NCBI RefSeq assembly: GCF_902809865.1
Contig: NZ_CADDWH010000001.1
Location: forward strand, 434,001-498,000
DNA: 64,000 bases
Reading direction: 5' to 3'
From: Halobacillus sp. Marseille-Q1614
Lineage (GTDB): Bacteria; Bacillota; Bacilli; Bacillales; Halobacillaceae
Part shown: positions 5,512 to 54,940 of the stretch, piece by piece
Layout: the number at the start of each line of letters is the position of its first letter
How positions within the stretch are numbered: the stretch's first letter is position 1
The notes under the pieces: generated by a model
The model's database searches: none
The model's input: the letters and a program-made list of their open reading frames with translations, nothing else
What the model was told of the DNA's origin: nothing
Program-made: the position numbers and the translations under genes

Positions 5512-8082
5512 TTATCTTCTTACAATGAAACTATGGTCGGTGCCACTGCTTGCCCAAGCTGTATAATCATTAAAGTTAATTTGATACCATTCATTACTTG
5601 TTATGATTTTATCACTATTGTCTAAGACGCCTGCAACAAAATCTCCGGTTTGCAGTGATCCAACCGGCTGATAGGAAGTAGAAGGGCCGGTTCTAACGTT
5701 TAAGTTGCTTGCTTTAACCTCTAATAGATTTAGCAATTTAACAAACTCTCCGCTAACCCATCCTTTAGTACCATCAAAAGAGACTTCATACCAAGATCCA
5801 TTAGTACCAAGCACATCAATCTTACTTCCGCCTGGTATAGAAGCTTGAATTGAATCATTTATTGATGGGCCGCTTCTTAAGTTCAGATTTGAACCAGTCT
5901 GTACTGCAACTTCTCCTTTTACATTAGCAGGGTACTCAATATAAGTGCCTGCTGAGTCATCAGGATCTGGTTTAGGCGAAGAAGAAGGCTGACCGATATA
6001 AGCTGGAACATCATATACTAAAACATAATTGTTAAGAGCATCATAAATGTTAGATATTGTTCTTGTTTGTAAATCAGCCCATGCTACATGAGTTGCATAT
6101 TGGTGATAACCAGGGTTGTCAGGGTTCCAGCGCATTTTATATAAAGTATCCTGACCGCTATGGACATAATTAACAGAAACAAATCTCGCTCCTCCAATTA
6201 TAGCCTCTTCAGGAGTGAACCATCCTTCGTTAAAAGCTCTCTTAGCTCCCCCTGATACCGGTGAATCGTCTACTGCTCCTATTCCATAAACGTTGTAAAC
6301 AGTATGAACTTTATTACTTTCTGAAACCACATTACCATTGTTATCAACAGGAACACCTCTAGCCAAGGTGGATGTGCCATATCCAGTTTCATGAATAGCA
6401 TGGGAGATCAGGTAAGCTTCATTAATGCTGTGTATTTTACCAGCTTCAATAAAAGCTGAAGCTTTTCCTTCCAATATTTCAGCATTATAAAGAACTTTAC
6501 GGTTGGCTTCTTCAGCATTCAGGCCTGCAGGCTGTGATAATTTTAAAAACTGGTAAAAACTGCTGGAGTTTTTATCAAAATTATCAGGATTTAAGTAATA
6601 AGATACCTCTTCTTCAGTAGCACTCACTTTTCCAGCACCGTCTGCTTTTGGAGTTCTAGTCATTTGAATTTCTAGCACATCATCAAAGTGAATATCGTAG
6701 TTAGTAGTTTCATAGATTAATTTTTCTGTATTAACTTGGTCTTTGTGAATATATCCAGTATTACTTTCTCCATTTATATACGCTTTCGCTTCGTACCAAT
6801 CTGCACTAAATGTTTTAAGGTCTAGGATATCATTTTTATTGTAGACATGAATGATCCCTGACCGCTTTGATGCTTTTTCATACATAATTGTTTGATCAAC
6901 AGCTGCTAGTCCACTGACTATTTGTTGATCACTCGATAGATTCTCGACGTGTGACTTGGCAATATAACCTGTATAGGGTTCATGGTTCAAATACACTGTA
7001 GCTTCATACCAATTGGCCGAGAAGTCTTTGTATTGAAGGATGCTTCCTTGTTCGTATGACTTCAGTGGCTTGGAATTTGTTGAAGCAGCGTTGAAAACAT
7101 GTGTTGGGGACTGCAATCCAATCCCTCTGCGGGCATTATTTGTTGAAGAAGGCTTCTCCACATGACTTTTGTGAAGGTATCCTGTTTCCTCTACACCGTT
7201 CACCCCTTTTTCAACGATATACCAATTACTCGAATAATCTTTATAAGATAAGGTGGTACCTGGAGAAAAAGATTTTATAACTTGTGAATTTGTGCGGGCA
7301 TTTGAATAGATATTAGTTGGTTTTAATAACGCAATACCCGAATCTTTTGCCCCATCTACTTCTCCTGTCTCTACGTGGCTTTTGTGAATGTACCCCGTAT
7401 GAGGTTCATGATTCAAATAAACAGTAGCTTCATACCAGTCATTTAAGAAGGACTTATATTGCAGAATAGTTCCATTCGAATAAGATTTTAAGATCTTTGA
7501 TCCTGTTGCTGCTTTAGAATACACATTCGTAGTATTCTGAAGAGCAATTCCTGTTAAATCTTGTTGAGGCTGCACGGAAGTCTCTACATGACTTTTATGT
7601 ATATAACCTGTATAGGGTTTGTGGTCTAAGTACACGGTGGCTTCATACCAATCATTAGAAAAAGTTTTATATCTTAGTATAGAACCCTGCCCGTATGATT
7701 TTAAAGGTTGTGCCCCTATATTTGCTTCCTCGTACACACTAACTAGATTATTAATTGCTCGTCCTTCTAAATCGTGTTGCGTGCTCACTGAATTTTCTAC
7801 ATCATCTTTATGTATGTAACCTGTGTAAGCTTTGTAGTTTAAATATATAGTGGCAATATACCAGCTGCTGCTGTGTTCTCTGTATTGAAGGATCGACCCC
7901 TCATTATATTGTTTCAGCACATTTGAATTTCTGCTTTCTGTGCTATAAACCTTAGTAGGGTTCTTAAGAGCAACCCCTCTAAATTCTTCTTCGGCTGTTA
8001 CAGTGCCCGATGCAGGAAAATAAGCAATTAGCAGTAACAAAAACAAAAGAGCTGACAATAATTTAAAAAACCCAAAACGCAT
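5512..8082 (-). CDS. Secreted N-acetylglucosaminidase autolysin with six N-terminal SH3/GW-like repeats
   Basis: An 856-residue secreted protein. Residues 1-31 form a signal peptide. Residues about 33-450 hold six repeats of about 70 residues, each ending in a form of TGYIHKSHVE; repeats 2, 3 and 5 are nearly identical (WYEATVYLNHEPYTGYI). A GH73-type glucosaminidase domain follows, with HAIHETGYGTSTLA around residue 565, where the glutamate is the expected catalytic acid. Two bacterial SH3 domains close the protein (LNLRSGPS, LNVRTGPS). It would cut the glycan strand of peptidoglycan, like LytD of B. subtilis. The repeats probably bind the wall or teichoic acids (inference). Start ATG follows TAGGAGGTAG. 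It lies between teichoic acid genes. Confidence 0.85.
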   Translation of the reverse strand: MRFGFFKLLSALLFLLLLIAYFPASGTVTAEEEFRGVALKNPTKVYSTESRNSNVLKQYNEGSILQYREHSSSWYIATIYLNYKAYTGYIHKDDVENSVSTQHDLEGRAINNLVSVYEEANIGAQPLKSYGQGSILRYKTFSNDWYEATVYLDHKPYTGYIHKSHVETSVQPQQDLTGIALQNTTNVYSKAATGSKILKSYSNGTILQYKSFLNDWYEATVYLNHEPHTGYIHKSHVETGEVDGAKDSGIALLKPTNIYSNARTNSQVIKSFSPGTTLSYKDYSSNWYIVEKGVNGVEETGYLHKSHVEKPSSTNNARRGIGLQSPTHVFNAASTNSKPLKSYEQGSILQYKDFSANWYEATVYLNHEPYTGYIAKSHVENLSSDQQIVSGLAAVDQTIMYEKASKRSGIIHVYNKNDILDLKTFSADWYEAKAYINGESNTGYIHKDQVNTEKLIYETTNYDIHFDDVLEIQMTRTPKADGAGKVSATEEEVSYYLNPDNFDKNSSSFYQFLKLSQPAGLNAEEANRKVLYNAEILEGKASAFIEAGKIHSINEAYLISHAIHETGYGTSTLARGVPVDNNGNVVSESNKVHTVYNVYGIGAVDDSPVSGGAKRAFNEGWFTPEEAIIGGARFVSVNYVHSGQDTLYKMRWNPDNPGYHQYATHVAWADLQTRTISNIYDALNNYVLVYDVPAYIGQPSSSPKPDPDDSAGTYIEYPANVKGEVAVQTGSNLNLRSGPSINDSIQASIPGGSKIDVLGTNGSWYEVSFDGTKGWVSGEFVKLLNLLEVKASNLNVRTGPSTSYQPVGSLQTGDFVAGVLDNSDKIITSNEWYQINFNDYTAWASSGTDHSFIVRR

Positions 8083-8477: not shown

Positions 8478-11330
8478 ATGGAACTTCTAAAAAGCGCGCT
8501 GGCTTTTTTTAATATATTTTGGTGGAAAGAAAATGTTGAGGGTACTTCCCTTAACCTGGAGAACGTCAACATAGAGAATATTATCTTATATGAAAAGGGA
8601 GAGCTGCATATCCAGCTTGCAAATCTACCTAATAAAATCAATGTAAAAAAAGAATTAATAATCACTAATATGAATAATGAAGAAACTGTCCAAAAAATTA
8701 ATATTGATTCGGAGTCTGAAGCAGTTGTTAATTTAAAGGACAGTTTGTTACATAGCGGTAAGTATGCTTTTTATTTAGTTGTTGAGCAAGAAAAAATTCG
8801 TTTAAGCCTGGATCAGGCGTTACATAACCAAATTAAAGGCTGGTCTCATGCTAAAGAAATCAGTGATTTCCTGGTAGTGCCTTATACCACTATAAAGAAC
8901 AATTTTAGTGTGAAGGTAATAGACATGTGTGAACATAACTCCTCTAATACATTACCCCATGTAGTAGAAAGCCTCGATAAAGTTAATGGAAAAGTTACCA
9001 TAAAGGGAAAGGTTTTTGCAGAGAAACATCTGAAAGATAATTTAGAGTTTATTGTGAAAAGAAGAGGATCTAAATTAAGTTATCAACTGCCCCTAGTAAT
9101 AAAACATAATAAATGGGAAGGTCATATAGACTTTTCTAATTGGGAGCCTTCTAAAGGAATATGGGACTATTATTTAAAGACAGAAAATAAAAAGTATAGA
9201 ATTCAGATAGAAAATGATCAATTAATTAACAACACCAAAGGCAGTATATTTCCATCCAGAAGAGAATCCAGATGGAATAAATTCTATATAACTAGAAATG
9301 GAAAACTTTCTTCTAAAATTCAATCGGCCACAATTAAGATGAAAAGTGTAGAAGCAAAAGTTTTCAATGATTGGAAAGTTAAATGCTGGGGTGTGTTAAA
9401 AAGCAGTATTATTGGAGCGAAAACGGGAGATGTCGAAGTTTTAATTTTAAGGAGGAACATTTATGAAGAGTTTGTTGTGCCACTAAAACTAGAACCAAAA
9501 AGTGGGAATGAAGACGTCTATAAATTTGAGTTTGAATTGAATTATAAAGATTTAATTCCTTCTGAACATAAAGAAATTTACAGGGGAGATGTTTTTTTAC
9601 GGATCCCTTTAGAAAACGATAAACAAAAGATACGCTTCCAACTAGAAAATGATGAGTTAGCCTATCAATCAAGAATTACAATAGAAGATGATAAGATTTT
9701 TCAAATTTATTTTTACTCTACCATTAATCAACAGTTGTCCATTGCTTTTAAAGATTTGAGCATCGAACGGAATGTCACGAACATTCAGTTATCTCATGAA
9801 AGCTTGAAAATAGAAGGGTATGCTTACTTGGACACAGTAGAGTGGGTTGAAAAAGAAGGTGTGTTAAGGTATTTAGTTATTCGGGAAAGAGAGTCAGAAA
9901 GAGAGTATGTTACTCCATTAGAAGGGATTCAAAACAATCTTGAAAGCCACGGTTATCGGTACACTTATAGTGGTTTTAGCTGTGAACTTAATGTGAACGA
10001 ATTTTTGGATCTTTCTAATGAGGAGAAAAAGATATTTGATCTTTATGTACGGTTCCGATACAAAGGGAATATTAAGGAGAGGAGAGTAGGGCAAAAAGAG
10101 TTTAATTATTTTAAAGATGATATTATAGACCGTACAGTATTAACAAAAACATCTTTTAATGAGATTCTGTATTTAACTTATACTCCAAGTGGCAACATAA
10201 AAATTGAAATAAATCGGATTCCTTTAGAAGCCATACCGTATTTAACTAAAAGCTATTGGGAGGAAAACCGTAGCGGGCATGAAGATATCTGGCTGATTGG
10301 GGAACGTCCAGATACAGCTCAGGATACGGGGTATCACTTTTTTAAATATTGCCGGGAGAATTTCCCAGACATGAAAGTTTATTATGCGATTGACTCTCAG
10401 TCAGGTGATTTAGAAAATATTGAGTACTTAGGAAACGTACTTCATATAGGAACTTTAGAACATTATAAGATTTCGGCTACAGCTACTGCATTCATAGGCT
10501 CGCATGACTTAGAATACTTTCTCCCGGCAAAAGCAGTAGAATTTGAGTCATTTAAGAATGGGAAAAGGGTTTTTCTTCAACATGGTGTTTTAGGAAGGAA
10601 AAATGTAGAGTACCATAAAGATTATTATAAATATCCATTTGATTTATTTTGTGTAAGCTCACTATCAGAAAAGAATTTAGTCATTAAAAAATTGGGGTAT
10701 GATAAAGAAGATGTAAAAGTAACAGGACTGACTCGCTTTGACAACCTGCTCAAACAGAAGAATAATAACTATTCCATATTATTTATACCAACCTGGAGAG
10801 ATTGGCTTTTAAATGAAGAGCAATTCTTAGAATCTGATTATTTTGGCAGATATAAGAGTTTTTTAAAAAATCCCAATCTGCATAAATTATTAGATGAGTA
10901 TAATGTAGAACTTAATTGCTATCCTCATTATCGAATGCAGCCCTTTATTGACCATTTTGACATTACACGGGAAAATATTAAGGTTATTAAACTTGGTGAA
11001 AAGTCTGTTCAAGACCTTTTATTGGAAAGTAATTTTATGATAACCGATTATTCTTCTGTATCATTTGATTATCATTATATGGAAAAACCAGTTGTTTTTT
11101 ATCATTTTGATAGGGAATCTTTTTTTAGAAACGGTATACTAAGGCCCGTGGAAGAAACTTTTTTAGGAGATATCTGCTTTACTGAAGACTCTTTAATTCA
11201 GAAGGTTCAAAGTTATATTGAGAATGGGTTTAAAGAGAGAGAAATATTCACTAGAAAGAAAGACTTAATTTTTAATAATATTGATTCAAACAATTGTGAA
11301 AGAGTGTACAATGAAATTAAACAATTTTAA
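8478..11330 (+). CDS. Large CDP-glycerol glycerophosphotransferase family protein (950 aa)
   Basis: The C-terminal 350 residues are a TagB/TagF-type glycerophosphotransferase domain: RVFLQHGVLGRKNVEY near residue 695, LFIPTWRDW near 770 and FMITDYSSVSFDYHYMEKP near 852. The N-terminal 560 residues are a charged, beta-rich region with repeated modules of about 120 residues that I cannot assign to a named domain. The protein is longer than TagF (746 in B. subtilis) and distinct from the 681-residue TagF-like protein encoded next. It may add or extend a different polyol phosphate chain, or act on a side branch (inference). Codon use is clearly AT-rich. GGGGAG lies 11 bases before the ATG. The next family member starts 35 bases after its stop, so the two probably form an operon. 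Confidence 0.8.
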   Translation: MELLKSALAFFNIFWWKENVEGTSLNLENVNIENIILYEKGELHIQLANLPNKINVKKELIITNMNNEETVQKINIDSESEAVVNLKDSLLHSGKYAFYLVVEQEKIRLSLDQALHNQIKGWSHAKEISDFLVVPYTTIKNNFSVKVIDMCEHNSSNTLPHVVESLDKVNGKVTIKGKVFAEKHLKDNLEFIVKRRGSKLSYQLPLVIKHNKWEGHIDFSNWEPSKGIWDYYLKTENKKYRIQIENDQLINNTKGSIFPSRRESRWNKFYITRNGKLSSKIQSATIKMKSVEAKVFNDWKVKCWGVLKSSIIGAKTGDVEVLILRRNIYEEFVVPLKLEPKSGNEDVYKFEFELNYKDLIPSEHKEIYRGDVFLRIPLENDKQKIRFQLENDELAYQSRITIEDDKIFQIYFYSTINQQLSIAFKDLSIERNVTNIQLSHESLKIEGYAYLDTVEWVEKEGVLRYLVIRERESEREYVTPLEGIQNNLESHGYRYTYSGFSCELNVNEFLDLSNEEKKIFDLYVRFRYKGNIKERRVGQKEFNYFKDDIIDRTVLTKTSFNEILYLTYTPSGNIKIEINRIPLEAIPYLTKSYWEENRSGHEDIWLIGERPDTAQDTGYHFFKYCRENFPDMKVYYAIDSQSGDLENIEYLGNVLHIGTLEHYKISATATAFIGSHDLEYFLPAKAVEFESFKNGKRVFLQHGVLGRKNVEYHKDYYKYPFDLFCVSSLSEKNLVIKKLGYDKEDVKVTGLTRFDNLLKQKNNNYSILFIPTWRDWLLNEEQFLESDYFGRYKSFLKNPNLHKLLDEYNVELNCYPHYRMQPFIDHFDITRENIKVIKLGEKSVQDLLLESNFMITDYSSVSFDYHYMEKPVVFYHFDRESFFRNGILRPVEETFLGDICFTEDSLIQKVQSYIENGFKEREIFTRKKDLIFNNIDSNNCERVYNEIKQF

Positions 11331-11365
11331 TTAGAAAAATATCATCAGAAAGGGTTTTATTTTAT

Positions 11366-13411
11366 ATGAAAAATAGGTTGAAGCCATTCGTAGCAGATGT
11401 AAAGCTGCACAAGGATGAAAAAATATCCATATATATTCCCGTTTCAAAGGAAGACGATAGGATTAATCGATTAATCTTAATTAATCGCCAATCTTATGAA
11501 GAGATTAATCTGCCTTTGTTTGAAAAAGATGTTAACGATAATGTAAGGCTAATATATGGAATTTTAGAGTACCAAAAGTGGAATGAAAAATTGCTGAATG
11601 GAGAGTTCTGGGATCTTTATTTGCAAAATGGAGAAGGAAACCACCGACTAAATTCCAATAATCATGCTATTGAATATGTCAGAGTTAAAGGAGAAGAATC
11701 AGGAAAAACATTCCACCCATATTTAACAAAGAAAGGAAATGTTTCCTTTAGATTCAGTGAAATTGACTTCTTTGGCGGCATCAATAGCTTAACTCTCAGT
11801 GAAGAAGGAAAGCTTTCATTATTGGGTAAAGTAGAAAAAGTGGATTTAGATAACGTAAGGGAAGCTAATTTGTTGATTAGTGATTCTTTAAACGTTGAAA
11901 CAAGAATCCCGTTAAATATAACAGCCCAAAAGAACTCTTCATTCGATGAATTTGAGGCGGAAGCTGATCTCGTTAATTTCTACACAGGTGAACTTCCAAA
12001 TTATTTGAAGTTTTCTATTGAGTTAGAGACCTCTGATGGAAATCAAACGATGTGGCGAGAGAGTCCCCGCTTAAAGTTCTACGGTAAAAATGACTTAGAT
12101 AAGTCGTTTCTTACTAATATAGAAGACATTGATGTGAAATTTAAGGTTTCTAAGACTAAAGTGATGAAGTATCTCAGTGTTCAAATCGTTGAAGACAACT
12201 TTATTAAGGAGTCACTTAGAAAAGCTGAAAGAAAAATTGTTAAAGTTAGAAGGGGCAAGAAGGCCTTAGACGTTTATAAGAAAGTTTTCCGTTTATTCAG
12301 CTTTCTGCCAAGCAATCAAAATTTAGTGGTTTTTGAAAGCTTTCATGGCAAACAGTATAGCGACAGCCCAAGAGCGATTTATGAGTATATGAAAGAGAAT
12401 TATCCATCTTATGAGTTGATATGGAGTGCAGACCGACGCCACTATCCGGACTTTATGGAAAAAGATCTTCCTGTTGTAAGACGTTTCTCTTTAAAGTGGC
12501 TGCTCGTTATGACAAGAGCGGGGTATTGGGTTACGAACACACGTCTTCCTAACTGGCTTCCTAAACCAAAGGGTACTGAGTATGTCCAAACATGGCATGG
12601 TACTCCTTTAAAACGCTTGGCCGCTGATATGGATGAAGTTCATATGCCCGGCACGAACACTTTGAAATATAAGAGCAACTTTATTAAGGAAGCAAATAAG
12701 TGGGATTACCTTGTAGCTCCTAATGAGTACTCCAGCGAAATATTCAAGAGTGCTTTCTTATTCGGTAAAAATATGATTGAATCGGGATATCCAAGAAATG
12801 ATTATTTATATAATCAAAATAACCCGCAGACGATTCGCGCATTAAAAACCAAATTGAATCTGCCTGAAGATAAAAAGGTTGTGCTTTATGCACCTACGTG
12901 GCGAGACAATCAGTTTTATCAAAGAGGGAAATACAAGTTTGATTTGAGTTTAGATCTTCAAAAAATGAAGGATGAACTTGGCGATGAATATGTAGTTGTT
13001 CTGCGTATGCACTATCTAATTGCCGAGAACTTTGATCTTGGCCCATTCGAAGGGTTTGCTTATGACTTTTCTAAACACGAAGATATTAGAGACTTGTATC
13101 TAATATCTGATATTTTAATTACTGATTATTCTTCCGTTTTCTTTGATTATGCGAACTTAAGAAGGCCGATTATATTCTACGTATATGATATTGATGAATA
13201 TCGTGACAGTCTACGCGGGTTTTACCTAGATCTTGAGAAGGAAGCACCAGGTCCATTGACTAAGACTACTGAAGAAGTCATTGCTTCTATAAAAGAATTC
13301 GAACGAAATAACTACCAGCTCGATGATTCTTTCGAAGCGTTTTATGAAAGATTTTGCGCCTGGGAAAAAGGTGAATCTTCTAAGCGAGTAGTTGAAACCG
13401 TCTTTCAATAA
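11366..13411 (+). CDS. tagF: Poly(glycerol phosphate) polymerase, TagF-like
   Basis: A 681-residue cytoplasmic, membrane-peripheral enzyme that would polymerise glycerol phosphate from CDP-glycerol onto the primed lipid carrier. The N-terminal 290 residues are beta-rich, as in TagF. The C-terminal catalytic domain shows the classic motifs: VQTWHGTPLKRLAADMDE near residue 405 (with the family histidine), SGYPRNDYL near 472, VLYAPTWRDNQF near 505, LRMHYL near 545 and ITDYSSVFFDYANLRRP near 585. Length and motif spelling fit TagF best among the three homologues here. The exporter tagGH follows on the same strand behind its own promoter, as expected for a teichoic acid locus. Polymer type is inferred. 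Confidence 0.83.
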   Translation: MKNRLKPFVADVKLHKDEKISIYIPVSKEDDRINRLILINRQSYEEINLPLFEKDVNDNVRLIYGILEYQKWNEKLLNGEFWDLYLQNGEGNHRLNSNNHAIEYVRVKGEESGKTFHPYLTKKGNVSFRFSEIDFFGGINSLTLSEEGKLSLLGKVEKVDLDNVREANLLISDSLNVETRIPLNITAQKNSSFDEFEAEADLVNFYTGELPNYLKFSIELETSDGNQTMWRESPRLKFYGKNDLDKSFLTNIEDIDVKFKVSKTKVMKYLSVQIVEDNFIKESLRKAERKIVKVRRGKKALDVYKKVFRLFSFLPSNQNLVVFESFHGKQYSDSPRAIYEYMKENYPSYELIWSADRRHYPDFMEKDLPVVRRFSLKWLLVMTRAGYWVTNTRLPNWLPKPKGTEYVQTWHGTPLKRLAADMDEVHMPGTNTLKYKSNFIKEANKWDYLVAPNEYSSEIFKSAFLFGKNMIESGYPRNDYLYNQNNPQTIRALKTKLNLPEDKKVVLYAPTWRDNQFYQRGKYKFDLSLDLQKMKDELGDEYVVVLRMHYLIAENFDLGPFEGFAYDFSKHEDIRDLYLISDILITDYSSVFFDYANLRRPIIFYVYDIDEYRDSLRGFYLDLEKEAPGPLTKTTEEVIASIKEFERNNYQLDDSFEAFYERFCAWEKGESSKRVVETVFQ

Positions 13412-22538: not shown

Positions 22539-23294
22539 ATGGAGGAGACGATCTCTCTCAAGGAAATCTTCGAAGTTTTAAAGAAGAGATTGTGGATGAT
22601 TCTTGCTGTAACTGCTGGCGCAGCGATCATTAGCGCAATTATAACTTTTTTCGTATTAACACCTACATATGAAGCTTCGTCCGAATTTATAGTTAACCAA
22701 GAAGAAAGTATGGAAGAGAATCCGTACGACGTAAATAATATACGTACAAACATAGAACTTATCAGTACATATAACGTCATCATAAAAAGTCCAGCAATAT
22801 TAAATGAAGTCATTGAAAATATGGACCTCCAAATGACAGCCGAACAGCTAAGCCAGAAGATTCAAGTATCCAGTGCTGAAGAATCACAGGTAGTGAATGT
22901 TACGGTTACTGATGAAAGTCCTGCTATGGCAGTAGGTATCGCAAACGGCACTGTCGAAACGTTCGAACAGGAGATTCCTGACCTGATGAATGTGGATAAC
23001 GTCAGTATTTTGTCTCCCGCTGTAGAGAGTTCTAATCCTTCCCCAGTAAGCCCAAAACCACTATTAAATATTGCTATAGCTATTGTAGTTGGTTTAATGG
23101 TAGGCGTTGGTCTGGCCTTCCTGCTTGAATACTTGGATAATACGATTAAGACAGAGCAGGATGTGGAGAAGACTCTTGGACTTCCGCTTATGGGAGTCAT
23201 CTCAACCGTGTCTGAAGAAGACTTAGGACCAGAGAAGATGAATAGACAGCCGAGTCGTTCATCTAAAGTGAGAGGTGAATCTGTTGGTACGTAA
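22539..23294 (+). CDS. Wzz/YveK-type chain-length regulator and kinase activator
   Basis: A 251-residue membrane protein of the polysaccharide co-polymerase family (Wzz; CapA/YveK/YwqC type). It has an N-terminal helix (about residues 18-40), an extracellular coil region and a second helix (about 175-197, LLNIAIAIVVGLMVGVGLA) followed by the LEYLDNTIKTEQDVE stretch typical of Wzz proteins. In Firmicutes such proteins bind and activate the separate BY-kinase encoded next and set polysaccharide chain length. GTGGAGG lies 12 bases before the ATG. It overlaps the kinase gene. Confidence 0.87.
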   Translation: MEETISLKEIFEVLKKRLWMILAVTAGAAIISAIITFFVLTPTYEASSEFIVNQEESMEENPYDVNNIRTNIELISTYNVIIKSPAILNEVIENMDLQMTAEQLSQKIQVSSAEESQVVNVTVTDESPAMAVGIANGTVETFEQEIPDLMNVDNVSILSPAVESSNPSPVSPKPLLNIAIAIVVGLMVGVGLAFLLEYLDNTIKTEQDVEKTLGLPLMGVISTVSEEDLGPEKMNRQPSRSSKVRGESVGT

Positions 23295-23982
23295 ATCCAA
23301 AAAGAAGCAATTTGCATTGAAAGCCAGAAAAATTATTGCAAATGACAATCCAAAATCTCCAATCTCAGAACAATACAGAACGATTCGTGCCAATCTGCAA
23401 TTTGCATCCGTGGATCAGGATCTCCACACATTATTGGTTACTTCTTCCGGTCCCGCCGAAGGGAAGTCCATGACCGCTGCTAACTTGGCTGCGGTGTTTG
23501 CTCAGCAGGGCAAAAGAGTTCTCTTAGTTGATGCCGACTTACGAAAACCTACTGTTCACCACACTTTTCGCCTGAACAATACTCGTGGACTAAGTAATTT
23601 TCTCGTGGGAAGAGAAGTATTAAAAGATATTTCTCAGGTGACAGCAGTAGAGAATCTGGAAGTATTAACAAGCGGACCTATTCCGCCTAATCCATCAGAA
23701 CTTCTAGGTTCAAAAGCAATGGCGAAACTGCTTCTAGAAGCACGCCAGACTTATGACTTAGTCCTCCTGGATACACCTCCGATACTCGCTGTATCCGATT
23801 CGCAGGTGCTGGCCAGTGAAGTAGATGGAGTACTGTTAGTCGTAAGAAGCACACAAACAGAATTTTCTGCAGCAGAGCGAGCGAAAGAATTATTGCAGCA
23901 GTCTAAAGCGAACATACTAGGTGTCGTCTTAAACGACCGCGAAAAGAAAAACAGCAACTACTATTATTACTATGGTACTTAA
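23284..23982 (+). CDS. Bacterial tyrosine kinase (BY-kinase) of the CpsD/CapB/YwqD family
   Basis: A cytoplasmic autophosphorylating tyrosine kinase that controls surface polysaccharide synthesis with the Wzz-like partner. Motifs: Walker A SSGPAEGKSMTAANLA near residue 57, Walker A' VLLVDADLRKP near 80, Walker B LVLLDTPPIL near 160, and a C-terminal tyrosine cluster SNYYYYYGT, the usual autophosphorylation site. The frame is open back to GTG 23275. I prefer TTG 23284 because AGAGGTG lies 6 bases upstream, but GTG remains possible. It overlaps the preceding gene. The phosphatase gene (ywqE/cpsB type) that often accompanies it is not present; an insertion sequence follows instead. Confidence 0.88.
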   Translation: MVRKSKKKQFALKARKIIANDNPKSPISEQYRTIRANLQFASVDQDLHTLLVTSSGPAEGKSMTAANLAAVFAQQGKRVLLVDADLRKPTVHHTFRLNNTRGLSNFLVGREVLKDISQVTAVENLEVLTSGPIPPNPSELLGSKAMAKLLLEARQTYDLVLLDTPPILAVSDSQVLASEVDGVLLVVRSTQTEFSAAERAKELLQQSKANILGVVLNDREKKNSNYYYYYGT

Positions 23983-24054: not shown

Positions 24055-24618
24055 ATGTCAAAGTATAGTGAGAAATTTAAATTACAGGTGGTAACGGAGT
24101 ACTTCCAAGGTCATCTAGGGTACGCTTTATTAGCTAAGAAGTACTCGATCCCTAGTGATGTTCAAATTTTACGCTGGGTTCGTGCTTATCAAGCCTTCGG
24201 AGAAGAAGGTTTAAAAAGGAAGCATTCGAAACAAGTCTACCCTGTCCAATTCAAGCTGGATGTATTAAACTTTATGAAACAGACAGGCGCTTCTCATCAG
24301 GAGACTGCGATTGCCTTCCAATTGAACAACCCTGCGTTAATTGCGAACTGGTCCAACATTTTTCGGAAGGAAGGGATCGGAGGCCTCCAAGAAAAAGCGA
24401 AAGGACGGCCCTCTATGTCAAAAAATCATAAGAAAAAGTCAACCAAATCAGATAAAGAATTAACTCGTGAAGAACAATTAGAACGTGAAAATGAACTCCT
24501 ACGTTTAGAGAATTCCTATCTAAAAAAGTTAAAAGCTTTTCAGGAGAATCCGAATGCCTATCTCGAAAAGCACAAACAGCGCTGGTATTCGAACTCAAAA
24601 AAGAAGGATTCAAATTAA
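24055..24618 (+). CDS. IS3-family transposase OrfA
   Basis: A 187-residue DNA-binding protein with two helix-turn-helix units (about residues 8-50 and 62-110) and a C-terminal leucine-zipper-like coiled coil (EEQLERENELLRLENSYLKK, from about residue 143), as in IS150 OrfA. It binds the ends of the element and regulates transposition. Near its end the sequence A AAA AAG at 24597-24603, in the correct phase (TCA AAA AAG), is the canonical slippery heptamer for -1 frameshifting into orfB. It stops at 24616-24618. Confidence 0.92.
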   Translation: MSKYSEKFKLQVVTEYFQGHLGYALLAKKYSIPSDVQILRWVRAYQAFGEEGLKRKHSKQVYPVQFKLDVLNFMKQTGASHQETAIAFQLNNPALIANWSNIFRKEGIGGLQEKAKGRPSMSKNHKKKSTKSDKELTREEQLERENELLRLENSYLKKLKAFQENPNAYLEKHKQRWYSNSKKKDSN

Positions 24619-25445
24619 AAGATGCCTTACGAAGAGTGGACATTCCTGAAGCCACTTATCATTACCAGAGAAAGCAGTTCAAGAAGGAAGATCCGAATAA
24701 AGAGTGGAAAGAAATGATTACGAACCTCTTCCATAAGCACAACGGAACCTATGGCTATCGCCGCATTTCCTTCGAACTTAGAAACCAGGGGTATATCATC
24801 AACCATAAAAAAGTTCAACGGATCATGAGTACGCTCGGATTGAAATGTGAAAAATTCACCCGTAAATCCAGGTATAAATCGTACAAAGGTACGGTCGGGA
24901 AAGTGGCTCATAATCGATTAAAACGCAGATTCCATACGCCCATTCGGCTCCAAAAATTAGTCACAGATGTGACGGAATTCAAATGTGCAGGAAATGAGAA
25001 ACTTTATTTAAGTCCGATTATGGACTTATTCAACGGAGAAGTTGTCTCTTTTGGCATTTCCAAACGGCCAACCCTGAACTTTGTTTTAAAGCCGTTGAAG
25101 GAAGCGTTGGATACCATTCAAACGGAAGCCGAATACCGGACAACCATCCACTCCGATCAAGGCTGGCATTATCAACACAACACGTGGGTGAAAACATTAA
25201 AGAAACATCAAATCTTTCAAAGTATGTCCAGGAAAGCAAACTGCGCAGATAATGCGGCCATGGAGAATTTTTTCGGGATCCTCAAACAAGAAATGTATTA
25301 CGGAGAAGAAGTGGTTTCTTATGAAGCGCTTAAAAGAAAGCTCGAGGTCTACGTGGACTACTATAATCATGAACGCGTAAAAGCAAAATTGGCTGGTTTA
25401 AGTCCCATACAATACCGAACTCAAACCAGCCAATCAGCTGCATAA
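24603..25445 (+). CDS. IS3-family transposase OrfB (integrase core, made by -1 frameshift)
   Basis: DDE catalytic part of the transposase. In the -1 frame the reading continues open from the slippery heptamer at 24597-24603 as EGFKLKDALRRVDIPEATYH, so the product is an OrfAB fusion; an internal GTG at 24636 could also start OrfB alone. Catalytic residues sit in LVTDVTEF (first Asp), HSDQGWHYQ (second Asp) and NCADNAAMENFFGILKQE (Glu), the D,D(35)E arrangement of the rve superfamily. The C-terminal YVDYYNHERVKAKLAGLSP is the usual family ending. It has about 280 residues after the shift and is apparently intact. Confidence 0.92.
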   Translation, partial: EGFKLKDALRRVDIPEATYHYQRKQFKKEDPNKEWKEMITNLFHKHNGTYGYRRISFELRNQGYIINHKKVQRIMSTLGLKCEKFTRKSRYKSYKGTVGKVAHNRLKRRFHTPIRLQKLVTDVTEFKCAGNEKLYLSPIMDLFNGEVVSFGISKRPTLNFVLKPLKEALDTIQTEAEYRTTIHSDQGWHYQHNTWVKTLKKHQIFQSMSRKANCADNAAMENFFGILKQEMYYGEEVVSYEALKRKLEVYVDYYNHERVKAKLAGLSPIQYRTQTSQSAA

Positions 25446-25945: not shown

Positions 25946-25974
25946 TTGTATATTTGAGATAAGGTTATTATAAT
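25946..25974 (+). promoter_or_regulatory. Sigma-A promoter upstream of the c-di-GMP riboswitch
   Basis: TTGTAT, 17-base spacer, TATAAT. Transcription would start near 25981, about 20 bases before the aptamer. Confidence 0.65.
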
Positions 25975-26000
25975 GAAGATTAACAAAACAACTTCTCCTT

Positions 26001-26096
26001 GAATAAAGGCAAACTTATTGAAAAATAAGGACGCAAAGCTACGGGTCTAAGGTCAGGCTCCCCCTGGCTATGGTTTTGACCGCCGGGTCGTCTAGG
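26001..26096 (+). ncRNA. Class I cyclic-di-GMP riboswitch (GEMM-I)
   Basis: Strong GEMM-I signature in order: AAAGGCAAAC, a stem closed by a GAAA tetraloop (CTTATTGAAAAATAAG), GGACGCAAAGC, then GGTCTAAG and TATGG, the two strands of the 11-nt tetraloop receptor, separated by a CAGG/CCTG hairpin, and GACCGCCGGGTCG at the 3' side. GGTC (26044-26047) pairs with GACC at the base of this helix. The base equivalent to G20 of the Vc2 aptamer appears to be G26008, which favours c-di-GMP over the cGAMP-specific variant. No terminator follows; the aptamer ends just before the ribosome binding site of the sinI homologue, so translational control is likely. The apical CCCCT (26061-26065) could pair with AGGGG of that site (inference). 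Confidence 0.9.
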
Positions 26097-26118
26097 TGAA
26101 TGGTGGAGGGGTCATTCA

Positions 26119-26259
26119 TTGAAAAAGGATAAGGTTATGAAGTTGGATGCGGAATGGGTCAGTCTCTTGAAAGAAGCAAAGGAAATCGGGCTGTCATCCC
26201 AAGAAGTACGAGAATTTTTAGCCCTCACTCAAGATACAAAAGTTAAGGAAAGAGCTTAA
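26119..26259 (+). CDS. sinI: SinI-family anti-repressor, 46 codons, TTG start
   Basis: A short protein with the SinI domain: LDAEWVSLLKEAKEIGLSSQ then EVREFLAL, which follows B. subtilis SinI (LDQEWVELMVEAKE...) almost residue by residue. SinI binds and inactivates the biofilm master repressor SinR. TGGAGGGG lies 7 bases before TTG 26119, which decides the start; an in-frame ATG at 26137 lacks such a site. The gene follows a c-di-GMP riboswitch and ends in a strong terminator, so it is a complete single-gene unit. No sinR is adjacent, unlike in B. subtilis. Its target repressor must lie elsewhere, or it may act on a SinR-like protein in trans. Confidence 0.85.
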   Translation: MKKDKVMKLDAEWVSLLKEAKEIGLSSQEVREFLALTQDTKVKERA

Positions 26260-26288
26260 AACCTCTCATTGCATGAGAGGTTTTTTTA
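26258..26288 (+). terminator. Terminator of sinI
   Basis: AACCTCTCA / TGAGAGGTT hairpin, 4-base loop, followed by seven T residues; it starts at the stop codon. Confidence 0.92.
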
Positions 26289-26380: not shown

Positions 26381-27562
26381 GTGGGAGAAAATAAAAAGAA
26401 AGCAAAACAGCCTGCTGAATTTGCGAATAGCACCGAGTGGTTAGACGCCAGCAACTACTATGAAAAGTATAAAGAATCACAGCAGTCATATAAGAAAAGA
26501 AACTGGAAGAGGATCTTCATTTCAATTATTACTATTTCACTCCTGTTAGTTTTTTTAGTAACAGGCTGGCTTTATTTAGATAAAATTTCTTCAGCTGAAC
26601 ATGCAGTCAATCAAGAGGATCCTGAAAAGCTGGCAGACCTGATTTCTTTTCCTCATGATTCTCAGTCATTTAATGCTTCTCAAGCTAACCATATGATCGA
26701 CTATTATAAAAAACATCCTGGTGAGTTTGTTTCAACGGTGGGTTATTTAAGAACCTCTTCGGGTACATCGGAAGAAATTGAATCAGAACATTTCTTACAT
26801 ATTAAAGATTTTGGAAAGAAGTGGCTTGTTTTTGATCATTACGCGATTGAATTAGATGCAGCAAAGGCTGAAGTCCAGTCTGATATAAATGAAGTTTCCT
26901 TGTATTTAAATGGTGAAGAAGTTGGAAAACTGTCAAACGGAATATATGCTATCAATGGATTAACTCCAGGTGAGCATGTATTAAAAGGAGAAGTTCATAG
27001 AGGAGATAAAGTGTATGATGAAGTCGTTTCACTAAATACATACCAAACGTCGAATGAACCTATTACGTTAGAGTTTGAAGAGTTTTCTACAGAGAGCCAG
27101 GAAGAGGTGTTATCAGACAATCTCGAGAGTGATTTAAAGCAGGCCGTTCAAGAACACGTTGAAGAATATATTGCTGCTTTTGAAGCGAAGGACATGGGAG
27201 AATTCAAGCGCATGAAAAATGAATCTTACCTTGAACGTACAGACGAAACGATTCAGGAAATGACGGACTTAGGTCAGAATTATGATGGGAAAGTTATGGG
27301 GATTGGCTATGACATCGGAAGCCTGGACTTCTCGTATGATGAGGATTCGAAATTATACAACGCTGCTTTTACCGTTTCTTTCACGTTTGACTCTGGTTAT
27401 TATCTAGATGGAGATGGGCTGGAAAACTCCTTGCGAACGGAAAATACATATTATTGGAATTATGAATTCACATATGATGAAGCAGAACAGAATTGGTTTA
27501 TTACCGGTGGAACTCCGTTATCGGGTTATACGACAGATGAATTGGATATACGAGAATTCTAA
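26381..27562 (+). CDS. TcaA-like membrane-anchored protein
   Basis: A 393-residue protein with a charged cytoplasmic N-terminus (about 45 residues), one membrane helix (IFISIITISLLLVFLVTGWL, about 49-68) and a large acidic extracellular part. The outer part contains two beta-rich segments (DINEVSLYLNGEEVGKL ... PGEHVLKGEV) and a C-terminal NTF2-like stretch ending YYWNYEFTYDEAEQNWFI. This layout is that of TcaA/YvbJ proteins, which influence teicoplanin susceptibility and wall teichoic acid display in Staphylococcus. The usual N-terminal zinc ribbon is missing. Start GTG 26381 follows GGAAGGGGGGAG. Exact role unknown; a cell-envelope function is likely from architecture and neighbours. Confidence 0.7.
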   Translation: MGENKKKAKQPAEFANSTEWLDASNYYEKYKESQQSYKKRNWKRIFISIITISLLLVFLVTGWLYLDKISSAEHAVNQEDPEKLADLISFPHDSQSFNASQANHMIDYYKKHPGEFVSTVGYLRTSSGTSEEIESEHFLHIKDFGKKWLVFDHYAIELDAAKAEVQSDINEVSLYLNGEEVGKLSNGIYAINGLTPGEHVLKGEVHRGDKVYDEVVSLNTYQTSNEPITLEFEEFSTESQEEVLSDNLESDLKQAVQEHVEEYIAAFEAKDMGEFKRMKNESYLERTDETIQEMTDLGQNYDGKVMGIGYDIGSLDFSYDEDSKLYNAAFTVSFTFDSGYYLDGDGLENSLRTENTYYWNYEFTYDEAEQNWFITGGTPLSGYTTDELDIREF

Positions 27563-27582: not shown

Positions 27583-27655
27583 AGGCCACTGAAAAAGTCC
27601 TTTCTAATCTAAAGGAGCTGTTAAAGTTTGTTTTTGATTCTCACGAATCGCTTGT

Positions 27656-27758
27656 CGGTGGGTGCTTGCCGCGGGCACGGCCTCAGCTAACTTGGTCAAG
27701 AAGATCACTTGACCAAGTGGATCTTCGGCTCGCGCTGTTCCCGCAGGCGTCACCACCG
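27656..27758. repeat. Imperfect long inverted repeat inside the IS1182-like element
   Basis: CGGTGGGTGCTTGCCGCGGG pairs imperfectly with CCCGCAGGCGTCACCACCG, and a second nested pair, ACTTGGTCAAG / CTTGACCAAGT, lies at the centre. RNA or single-stranded DNA from this stretch would fold into a long hairpin. It resembles the untranslated end of related elements (inference). Confidence 0.6.
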
Positions 27759-28052
27759 AACGCTCATCGTGGAATCAACAGAGGCCAATCTAAAAAGAGT
27801 GAGTTTCTATGATTTATAAAAGAAAGTCACTTTTTTTTCTTGTACAATGAAAGTAATACATAAAAATTGAGATTCGATGTTAGACCGTGAATTTAAGTCA
27901 GTACGATAAAATGGGTACGCAATACTTCTTGAGGAGATGTTTGATTGTATCGAGCGCTGGTGTGTGTCGCATCAAGGATGAGAGACTTCGACTGATTTAC
28001 GCCTGTCTCAATATGTTATAAACCTGGGGCCAAAACCAAGAGTTATTCGGTC

Positions 28053-54819: not shown

Positions 54820-54940
54820 ATTTGCGAGACACCACGAGGGACGAGGCTTTACTAGAGAGGAAGCTCGATTAAGTTCGGAACGTCGTGTGCCAACATCGAA
54901 CGACCTCAAGTCCTTTAGGGCCGGGCAAGCGAGTTTGTTT
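54820..54940. repeat. Possible strongly degenerate dispersed repeat (copy 4)
   Basis: TTTGCGAGACACCACGAGGG, then GGAAGCTCG, and GGGCAAGCGAGTTTG at the end. Only the GCGAGAC start and GCGAGT end recall the repeat family; the core has diverged. Confidence 0.35.

Follow-up and report, generated by a model that had tools for sequence, protein, structure and literature searches.

In Bacillus subtilis, sinI adjoins sinR and is driven by Spo0A without a riboswitch, and c-di-GMP is usually regarded as a pathway apart from the biofilm master switch. The initial annotation of the locus described here placed a direct coupling of c-di-GMP to SinI through RNA outside this textbook model. That part of its claim stands, as to our knowledge the conserved combination of a c-di-GMP riboswitch with sinI is absent from the model.

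The closest described systems include that of Bacillus methanolicus MGA3, which like our locus carries a predicted c-di-GMP riboswitch before sinI (BMMGA3_08510). A 2015 paper gives this pair in one row of its Table 4, among predicted cis-regulatory RNAs, and in one sentence of text, the row and sentence being without mechanism, direction, distribution or SinR arrangement (PMC4342826). In Paenibacillus, an "antisense-acting" c-di-GMP-I riboswitch was reported in 2023 at a SinR-like XRE gene (PMC9943018). Riboswitches of the same aptamer class as ours are also described in the B. cereus group, but the targets named for them differ, being cap/cbpA, a collagen adhesin, and the chemotaxis gene mcpA; one of these riboswitches, Bc1, contains terminators in its platform (PMC4933901, PMC11218506, PMC7423583, PMC7793685). 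For B. thuringiensis, sinI expression is stated to increase when c-di-GMP is high, with the data cited as unpublished and no riboswitch given for sinI in the passage concerned (PMC7793685). Within the open-access literature as searched, the wiring as such was found nowhere beyond the B. methanolicus row. That row makes the "unknown" of the initial annotation too strong; the c-di-GMP riboswitch-sinI wiring is little noticed, not unknown, its parts being ordinary and their conserved combination almost unremarked in the searchable literature.

The riboswitch-sinI locus of Halobacillus and its genomic partners

The locus lies in a window of 64,000 nucleotides (the whole stretch of DNA analysed) from Halobacillus sp. 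Marseille-Q1614, and all of its elements are on the forward strand. The c-di-GMP-I (GEMM-I) riboswitch aptamer at 25998-26095 matches the full RF01051 model (positions 1-87) at 66.8 bits (E 6.9e-11, cut-off 35), so the covariance check bears out the GEMM-I assignment of the initial annotation. It comprises a GAAA tetraloop hairpin, a GGACGCAAAGC core and a CUAAG/UAUGG receptor arm. Positions 26005-26014 read AAAGGCAAAC and include the guanine of GGCAAAC, which we take to be G20 of Vc2, the base that selects c-di-GMP over cGAMP. A single RF01051 match was listed in the source genome, where 150 of 249 first-look candidates were scored, and no c-di-GMP-II aptamer was matched there.

Upstream of the aptamer, a sigma-A promoter can be read from the sequence at 25946..25974, with a 17-nt spacer between its two elements. 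The -10 element TATAAT (25969-25974) agrees with all six consensus bases as first claimed, but the -35 element TTGTAT (25946-25951) agrees with three of six and a consensus promoter scan did not flag the promoter, which we therefore call plausible and nothing stronger. The 5' leader, ACUUCUCC (25991-25998), could form base pairs with GGAGGGGU in the Shine-Dalgarno (SD) sequence, and it overlaps a possible 5' strand of the P1 helix, CCUUG (25997-26001), read by hand. The SD sequence itself, GGAGGGG, was read from the sequence at 26105-26111 (GGAGGG at 26105-26110). Downstream of the gene, an intrinsic terminator at 26258..26287 (12-pair stem, loop of 3, T tract; 26258-26284 in the terminator scan) ends a one-gene transcript; this terminator and the ribosome binding site are both as initially described. 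Within the 64-kb window, the terminator scan flagged no terminator between the aptamer and the start codon, and gave one weak terminator-like match within an aptamer arm (26051-26069).

The gene served by this leader, at 26119..26259, begins with TTG 23 nt 3' of the aptamer and has 46 codons, with the SinI domain at residues 9-35 (PF08671, 45.5 bits, cut-off 31.4), which agrees with the short TTG-started SinI gene first proposed. The 46-aa protein has no HTH. Its closest solved structures are the B. subtilis SinI chains 1b0n_B (E 9.4e-06) and 5tmx_A (E about 1e-5), which rank above the SinR chains. It scores 38.6 bits against the NCBIfam SinI equivalog NF046031, below the cut-off of 80, and is therefore not assigned to it; a MerR domain also gave a weak match below threshold. 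The TTG stands at the same place, after the same CATTCA, in 10 members of the genus with the locus (our own included), and a relative from genus g4 also starts with TTG, while one g2 and five g6 relatives of the same type have ATG there. This conservation supports the TTG start. In all five pairs tested dN was below dS, and by this comparison the open reading frame is under purifying selection.

Like the sinI-sinR system of B. subtilis, the genome combines a SinI-domain anti-repressor with SinR homologues containing an HTH and a SinI-like domain. Where B. subtilis sinI lies next to sinR under Spo0A, the Halobacillus gene has a riboswitch and no sinR beside it, as was noted from the start. A search of the genome for SinR, on whose presence the initial annotation had made its reading depend, found two SinR homologues of 110 and 112 aa, 53% identical to each other (L007:7634-7966 and 9659-9997, corresponding to C1:3887634 and C1:3889659). 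The first matches B. subtilis SinR (1b0n_A) over its length with E 1.4e-35 and lies upstream of a CpsB/CapC gene; the second lies upstream of a gene that resembles CpsB/CapC by eye, with a polysaccharide synthesis gene beyond. Three CpsB/CapC-like genes occur in a row in this region (L007:8528-9295, scanned, and 10124-10921 and 11217-11976, judged by eye), two of them behind the sinR homologues and the third seemingly split over two frames.

Four SinI domains in the genome exceed the cut-off. The fourth is a second SinI, without a riboswitch upstream; it is found about 29 kb upstream of our locus, next to a SinR-like gene with an HTH only. This gene, at L008:6045-6281 (about 430 kb on the chromosome), encodes a 78-aa SinR-like HTH protein without a SinI-like domain and is followed by the 47-aa SinI at 6515-6658; the two look like a SinR split or reduced into two halves. 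The genome also encodes two GGDEF proteins with intact GGDEF/GGEEF motifs, five EAL matches (one partial) and one PilZ. The motif GTTCTYT, which we take to be the SinR operator, showed no enrichment in the 17-kb SinR/EPS stretch (10 occurrences, 7.4 expected) or in the 64-kb window (31, with 26.9 expected).

Several further features of the neighbourhood were observed. Two open reading frames at 24055-25445 resemble, by eye, an IS3-type transposase pair and lie between chain-length/tyrosine-kinase genes (22539-23982) and the riboswitch locus, and a gene for a YvbJ/TcaA-like protein (26381-27562) lies directly 3' of the sinI terminator. A dispersed repeat with the same probably spurious peptide, VTPAGTARAEDPLGQV..., occurs in the window at 27604-27812, about 1.4 kb past sinI, and at L007:8132-8328, between sinR and the CpsB gene. 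A Bacillaceae-1 RNA (RF01690, 38.5 bits) was found at 54853-54919.

Distribution of the riboswitch-sinI pair

In the family of the source organism, RF01051 was found in 27 of 44 genomes. All 39 matches were inspected, and in 24 a SinI gene lies 3' of the aptamer: 10 of 12 in our own genus, 2 of 4 in g2, 1 of 7 in g3, 1 of 2 in g4, 0 of 4 in g5 and 10 of 10 in g6. The pair is present in 10 of the 11 genomes of our genus, and each of five g6 genomes has two such loci. In eight of the 24 family loci the pair is followed within 1.3 kb by a seemingly full-length SinR gene in the same orientation.

A profile built from the 24 family SinI proteins matched 296 of the 397 genomes in the order. From at least about 150 listed SinI places we sampled 110 (L079-L188), mostly in rank order and with some skipped without rule; by their frames and tails, all 110 look like short SinI-only proteins. 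With a model made from 15 aptamers, a c-di-GMP-I aptamer was found just upstream of 55 of the 110, a proportion that is no unbiased share, since ranking by similarity to SinI proteins linked to a riboswitch favours positives in the sample. These 55 genes represent 16 of the 25 families and 24 of the 37 genera sampled, and 50 of the 91 genes outside our own family. All 11 positives checked were confirmed by Rfam, seven as RF01051 and four as the variant RF03167. The 55 genes negative for class I were also all checked with Rfam, and 54 of the 110 had no c-di-GMP aptamer of any kind. The remaining gene, at L086, is preceded by a c-di-GMP-II riboswitch (RF01786, 72.8 bits, L086:1394-1477) and followed by a convergent sinR, so that an aptamer structurally unrelated to c-di-GMP-I serves the same gene. 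Linked and unlinked SinI genes occur together in 17 of the genomes sampled.

The pairing was also approached from the aptamer side. Among the 30 highest-scoring loci of the order in each class, SinI lies downstream of none in class I and of one in class II (L333, the same place as L086), top scorers being an unfair sample. A class-wide pattern, similar to the exact one given below, matched 13 of the 38 genomes that belong to the order and 2 of the 360 from elsewhere in the class, and its backward control gave zero among the matches listed. SinI was present in all 18 matches, and Rfam confirmed the nine that were checked (seven RF01051, two RF03167). These matches added the families f3, f29, f31, f39, f43 (genus g65) and f47, which brings the class I-SinI pair to 22 families in the order (class II adding one more), plus f65 and f73 outside it. 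Since the pairing recurs in many Bacillus-like bacteria, c-di-GMP is probably a direct input to the biofilm switch in them.

The distribution also has gaps. Genus g48 of family f43, which from the protein tail we take to be the kin of B. subtilis, has no c-di-GMP aptamer at the five SinI places sampled; g65, of the same family, includes three genomes with such an aptamer at SinI. In f68, a large-genome family outside the order that may not be the family of Paenibacillus, the aptamer was found at none of eight SinI places, and nine of 39 genomes had an A1 match.

An exact pattern combining the aptamer core with codons for the D-x-(D/E)-W stretch of SinI was found in at least 117 stretches representing at least 80 loci, in genera that include Neobacillus, Peribacillus, Jeotgalibacillus, Metabacillus, Cytobacillus, Oceanobacillus, Halalkalibacter, Halobacillus and others. 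All 80 listed loci match the SinI profile, a result partly built into the pattern, and Rfam confirmed the six aptamers checked. At least 52 of the 80 have a full-length sinR no more than 2 kb downstream, a lower bound as 18 have less than 2 kb of downstream sequence. It is on the same strand in 16 and convergent in 37, one locus having both.

The convergent arrangement bears on the Paenibacillus case, which like at least 37 of the 80 loci here has a c-di-GMP-I aptamer running against a sinR homologue. Its authors read this as antisense control of sinR (PMC9943018), whereas the loci found here have a short sinI in sense orientation in between. This shared geometry suggests that a short sense sinI may have been overlooked there, and the "antisense" case may be the same arrangement.

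Expression platforms and the direction of the switch

The spacing between aptamer and gene is short throughout. A script placed the start codon 15-45 nt past the aptamer in 51 of the 55 class I loci, and the other four, with starts set by hand, fall in the same range by eye. (Starts were set by hand for L081, L140, L148, L155 and L169, four being missing and one corrected.) Such spacing leaves little room for a terminator, and the riboswitch therefore likely acts at the level of translation.

Two types of platform appear from the predicted pairings: an SD/start-codon hairpin and a pairing of the leader with the SD. The hairpin type is that of Halobacillus and of some loci in g2, g4 and g6, with the SD in the loop and the start codon at the foot of the hairpin. 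In our locus the hairpin GUGAAUGGU-GGAGGG-GUCAUUCAU (26096..26119) has nine pairs and takes the first base of the start codon into its stem, and at its base it shares positions with the putative 3' strand of P1. It is conserved across 17 relatives, whose 12 distinct rows give 108 of 108 paired cells. Five of the nine pairs vary, always on one side, so the hairpin shows conservation only, and covariation was rejected as support for it since no pair changes on both sides.

Examples of leader-SD pairing are GAUUCUUC with GGAGGAUC in g6 and AUCCUCC with GGAGGAU in f20. The pairing is stronger than in shuffled leaders at p<=0.05 in 20 of 74 loci, with about four expected (our own locus, which occurs twice in the test set, was counted once). 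The duplex at our locus has -11.4 kcal/mol and p 0.083 against shuffled leaders, and is thus suggestive only. Cognate leaders pair at -7.7 kcal/mol, compared with -7.4 kcal/mol with the SDs of other families. A general leader-SD rule was rejected, as 20 of 74 loci are significant and swapped leaders do nearly as well; the pairing is kept as a suggestive candidate for one of at least two platforms.

Accessibility was computed by folding 13 loci, which were chosen by hand together with the P1 pairs to be forced. Forcing P1 strips competing pairs by construction, which builds in a lean toward ON. With P1 and P2 forced in silico, the accessibility of the SD rose in eight of nine leader-type loci under this lean, and that of the start codon rose in three of four hairpin-type loci, from 0.39 to 0.86 in ours. 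The SD of our locus lies open in its loop in both computed states (0.94 and 0.96). The exceptions to the model were L020 among the hairpin loci and L113 among the leader loci. The start codon of the leader-type loci behaved less uniformly, with a clear fall in three of nine (L041, L042, L178), little change in three and a rise in three. In the leader type, the bases common to P1 and the anti-SD make for an ON switch, and on these models high c-di-GMP probably switches SinI ON.

Proposed mechanism and alternative readings

We propose that the locus produces a one-gene transcript in which a c-di-GMP-I aptamer and its expression platform control the translation of SinI, as an ON switch feeding the biofilm switch, and give this reading a probability of about 0.65. 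High c-di-GMP would stabilise the aptamer and its P1 helix, which shares bases with structures predicted to hide the ribosome site. P1 would compete in Halobacillus with the base of the SD/start-codon hairpin, and in other genera with the pairing of the leader to the SD. Translation of SinI would rise, and SinI would bind the SinI-like domain of SinR and break its DNA-binding oligomer. The matrix genes would then be released, and c-di-GMP would be joined directly to the biofilm switch. The coupling of c-di-GMP to SinI put forward in the initial annotation gains support at the sequence level from the strong RF01051 match, the SinR homologues, the c-di-GMP enzymes and the recurrence beyond this genome.

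Were ligand-bound P1 to leave the SD/start hairpin free to form, the riboswitch would be an OFF switch and high c-di-GMP would lower SinI. The local, conserved SD hairpin of Halobacillus forms with or without the forced aptamer, as its nearly constant SD accessibility indicates, and this fits an OFF switch, as do the hairpin-type locus that gains nothing when P1 is forced and the clear fall in start-codon accessibility in a third of the leader-type loci. We nevertheless judge it unlikely, because start codons become more accessible in most hairpin-type loci, the bases shared by P1 and the anti-SD in the leader type point to ON and SD accessibility there almost always increases. An OFF switch would also run contrary to general knowledge, c-di-GMP being usually linked with sessile life.

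A SinI-domain paralogue acting on another HTH partner, for instance the 78-aa SinR-like protein encoded some 29 kb from the locus or else a regulator of the MerR type, seems slightly less probable again than an OFF switch. It would suit the missing adjacent sinR, the second SinI beside an HTH-only SinR-like gene, the missed NCBIfam cut-off and the weak MerR-domain match. Against it, the best solved relatives are SinI chains, SinR's own SinI-like domain matches as well, both SinRs of this genome keep their SinI-like domain, and riboswitch-linked sinI genes in most of the listed relatives have a full-length SinR close downstream. It is very improbable that the aptamer lies beside the gene by chance, or is a decayed riboswitch, and does not regulate it: the weak -35 element would agree with decay, but the Rfam score is strong, the short-spaced arrangement recurs in 22 families with class I and one more with class II, and the gene is evidently under purifying selection.

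A wider reading extends this proposal to the Bacillales. RNA sensing of c-di-GMP, through class I, I-GGC and II riboswitches, could be a standard and perhaps older input to SinI-SinR, the Spo0A-only control of B. subtilis a special case, and the "antisense" riboswitches at sinR in fact sense riboswitches of unannotated sinI genes. We hold this reading tentatively, as one that falls a little short of what we would favour. If the wiring works as proposed, c-di-GMP would act directly on the anti-repressor in 22 or more families of a single order, and the textbook model would be an exception. Short sinI genes beside c-di-GMP riboswitches may often lack annotation, and the putative antisense control of sinR would have to be re-read.
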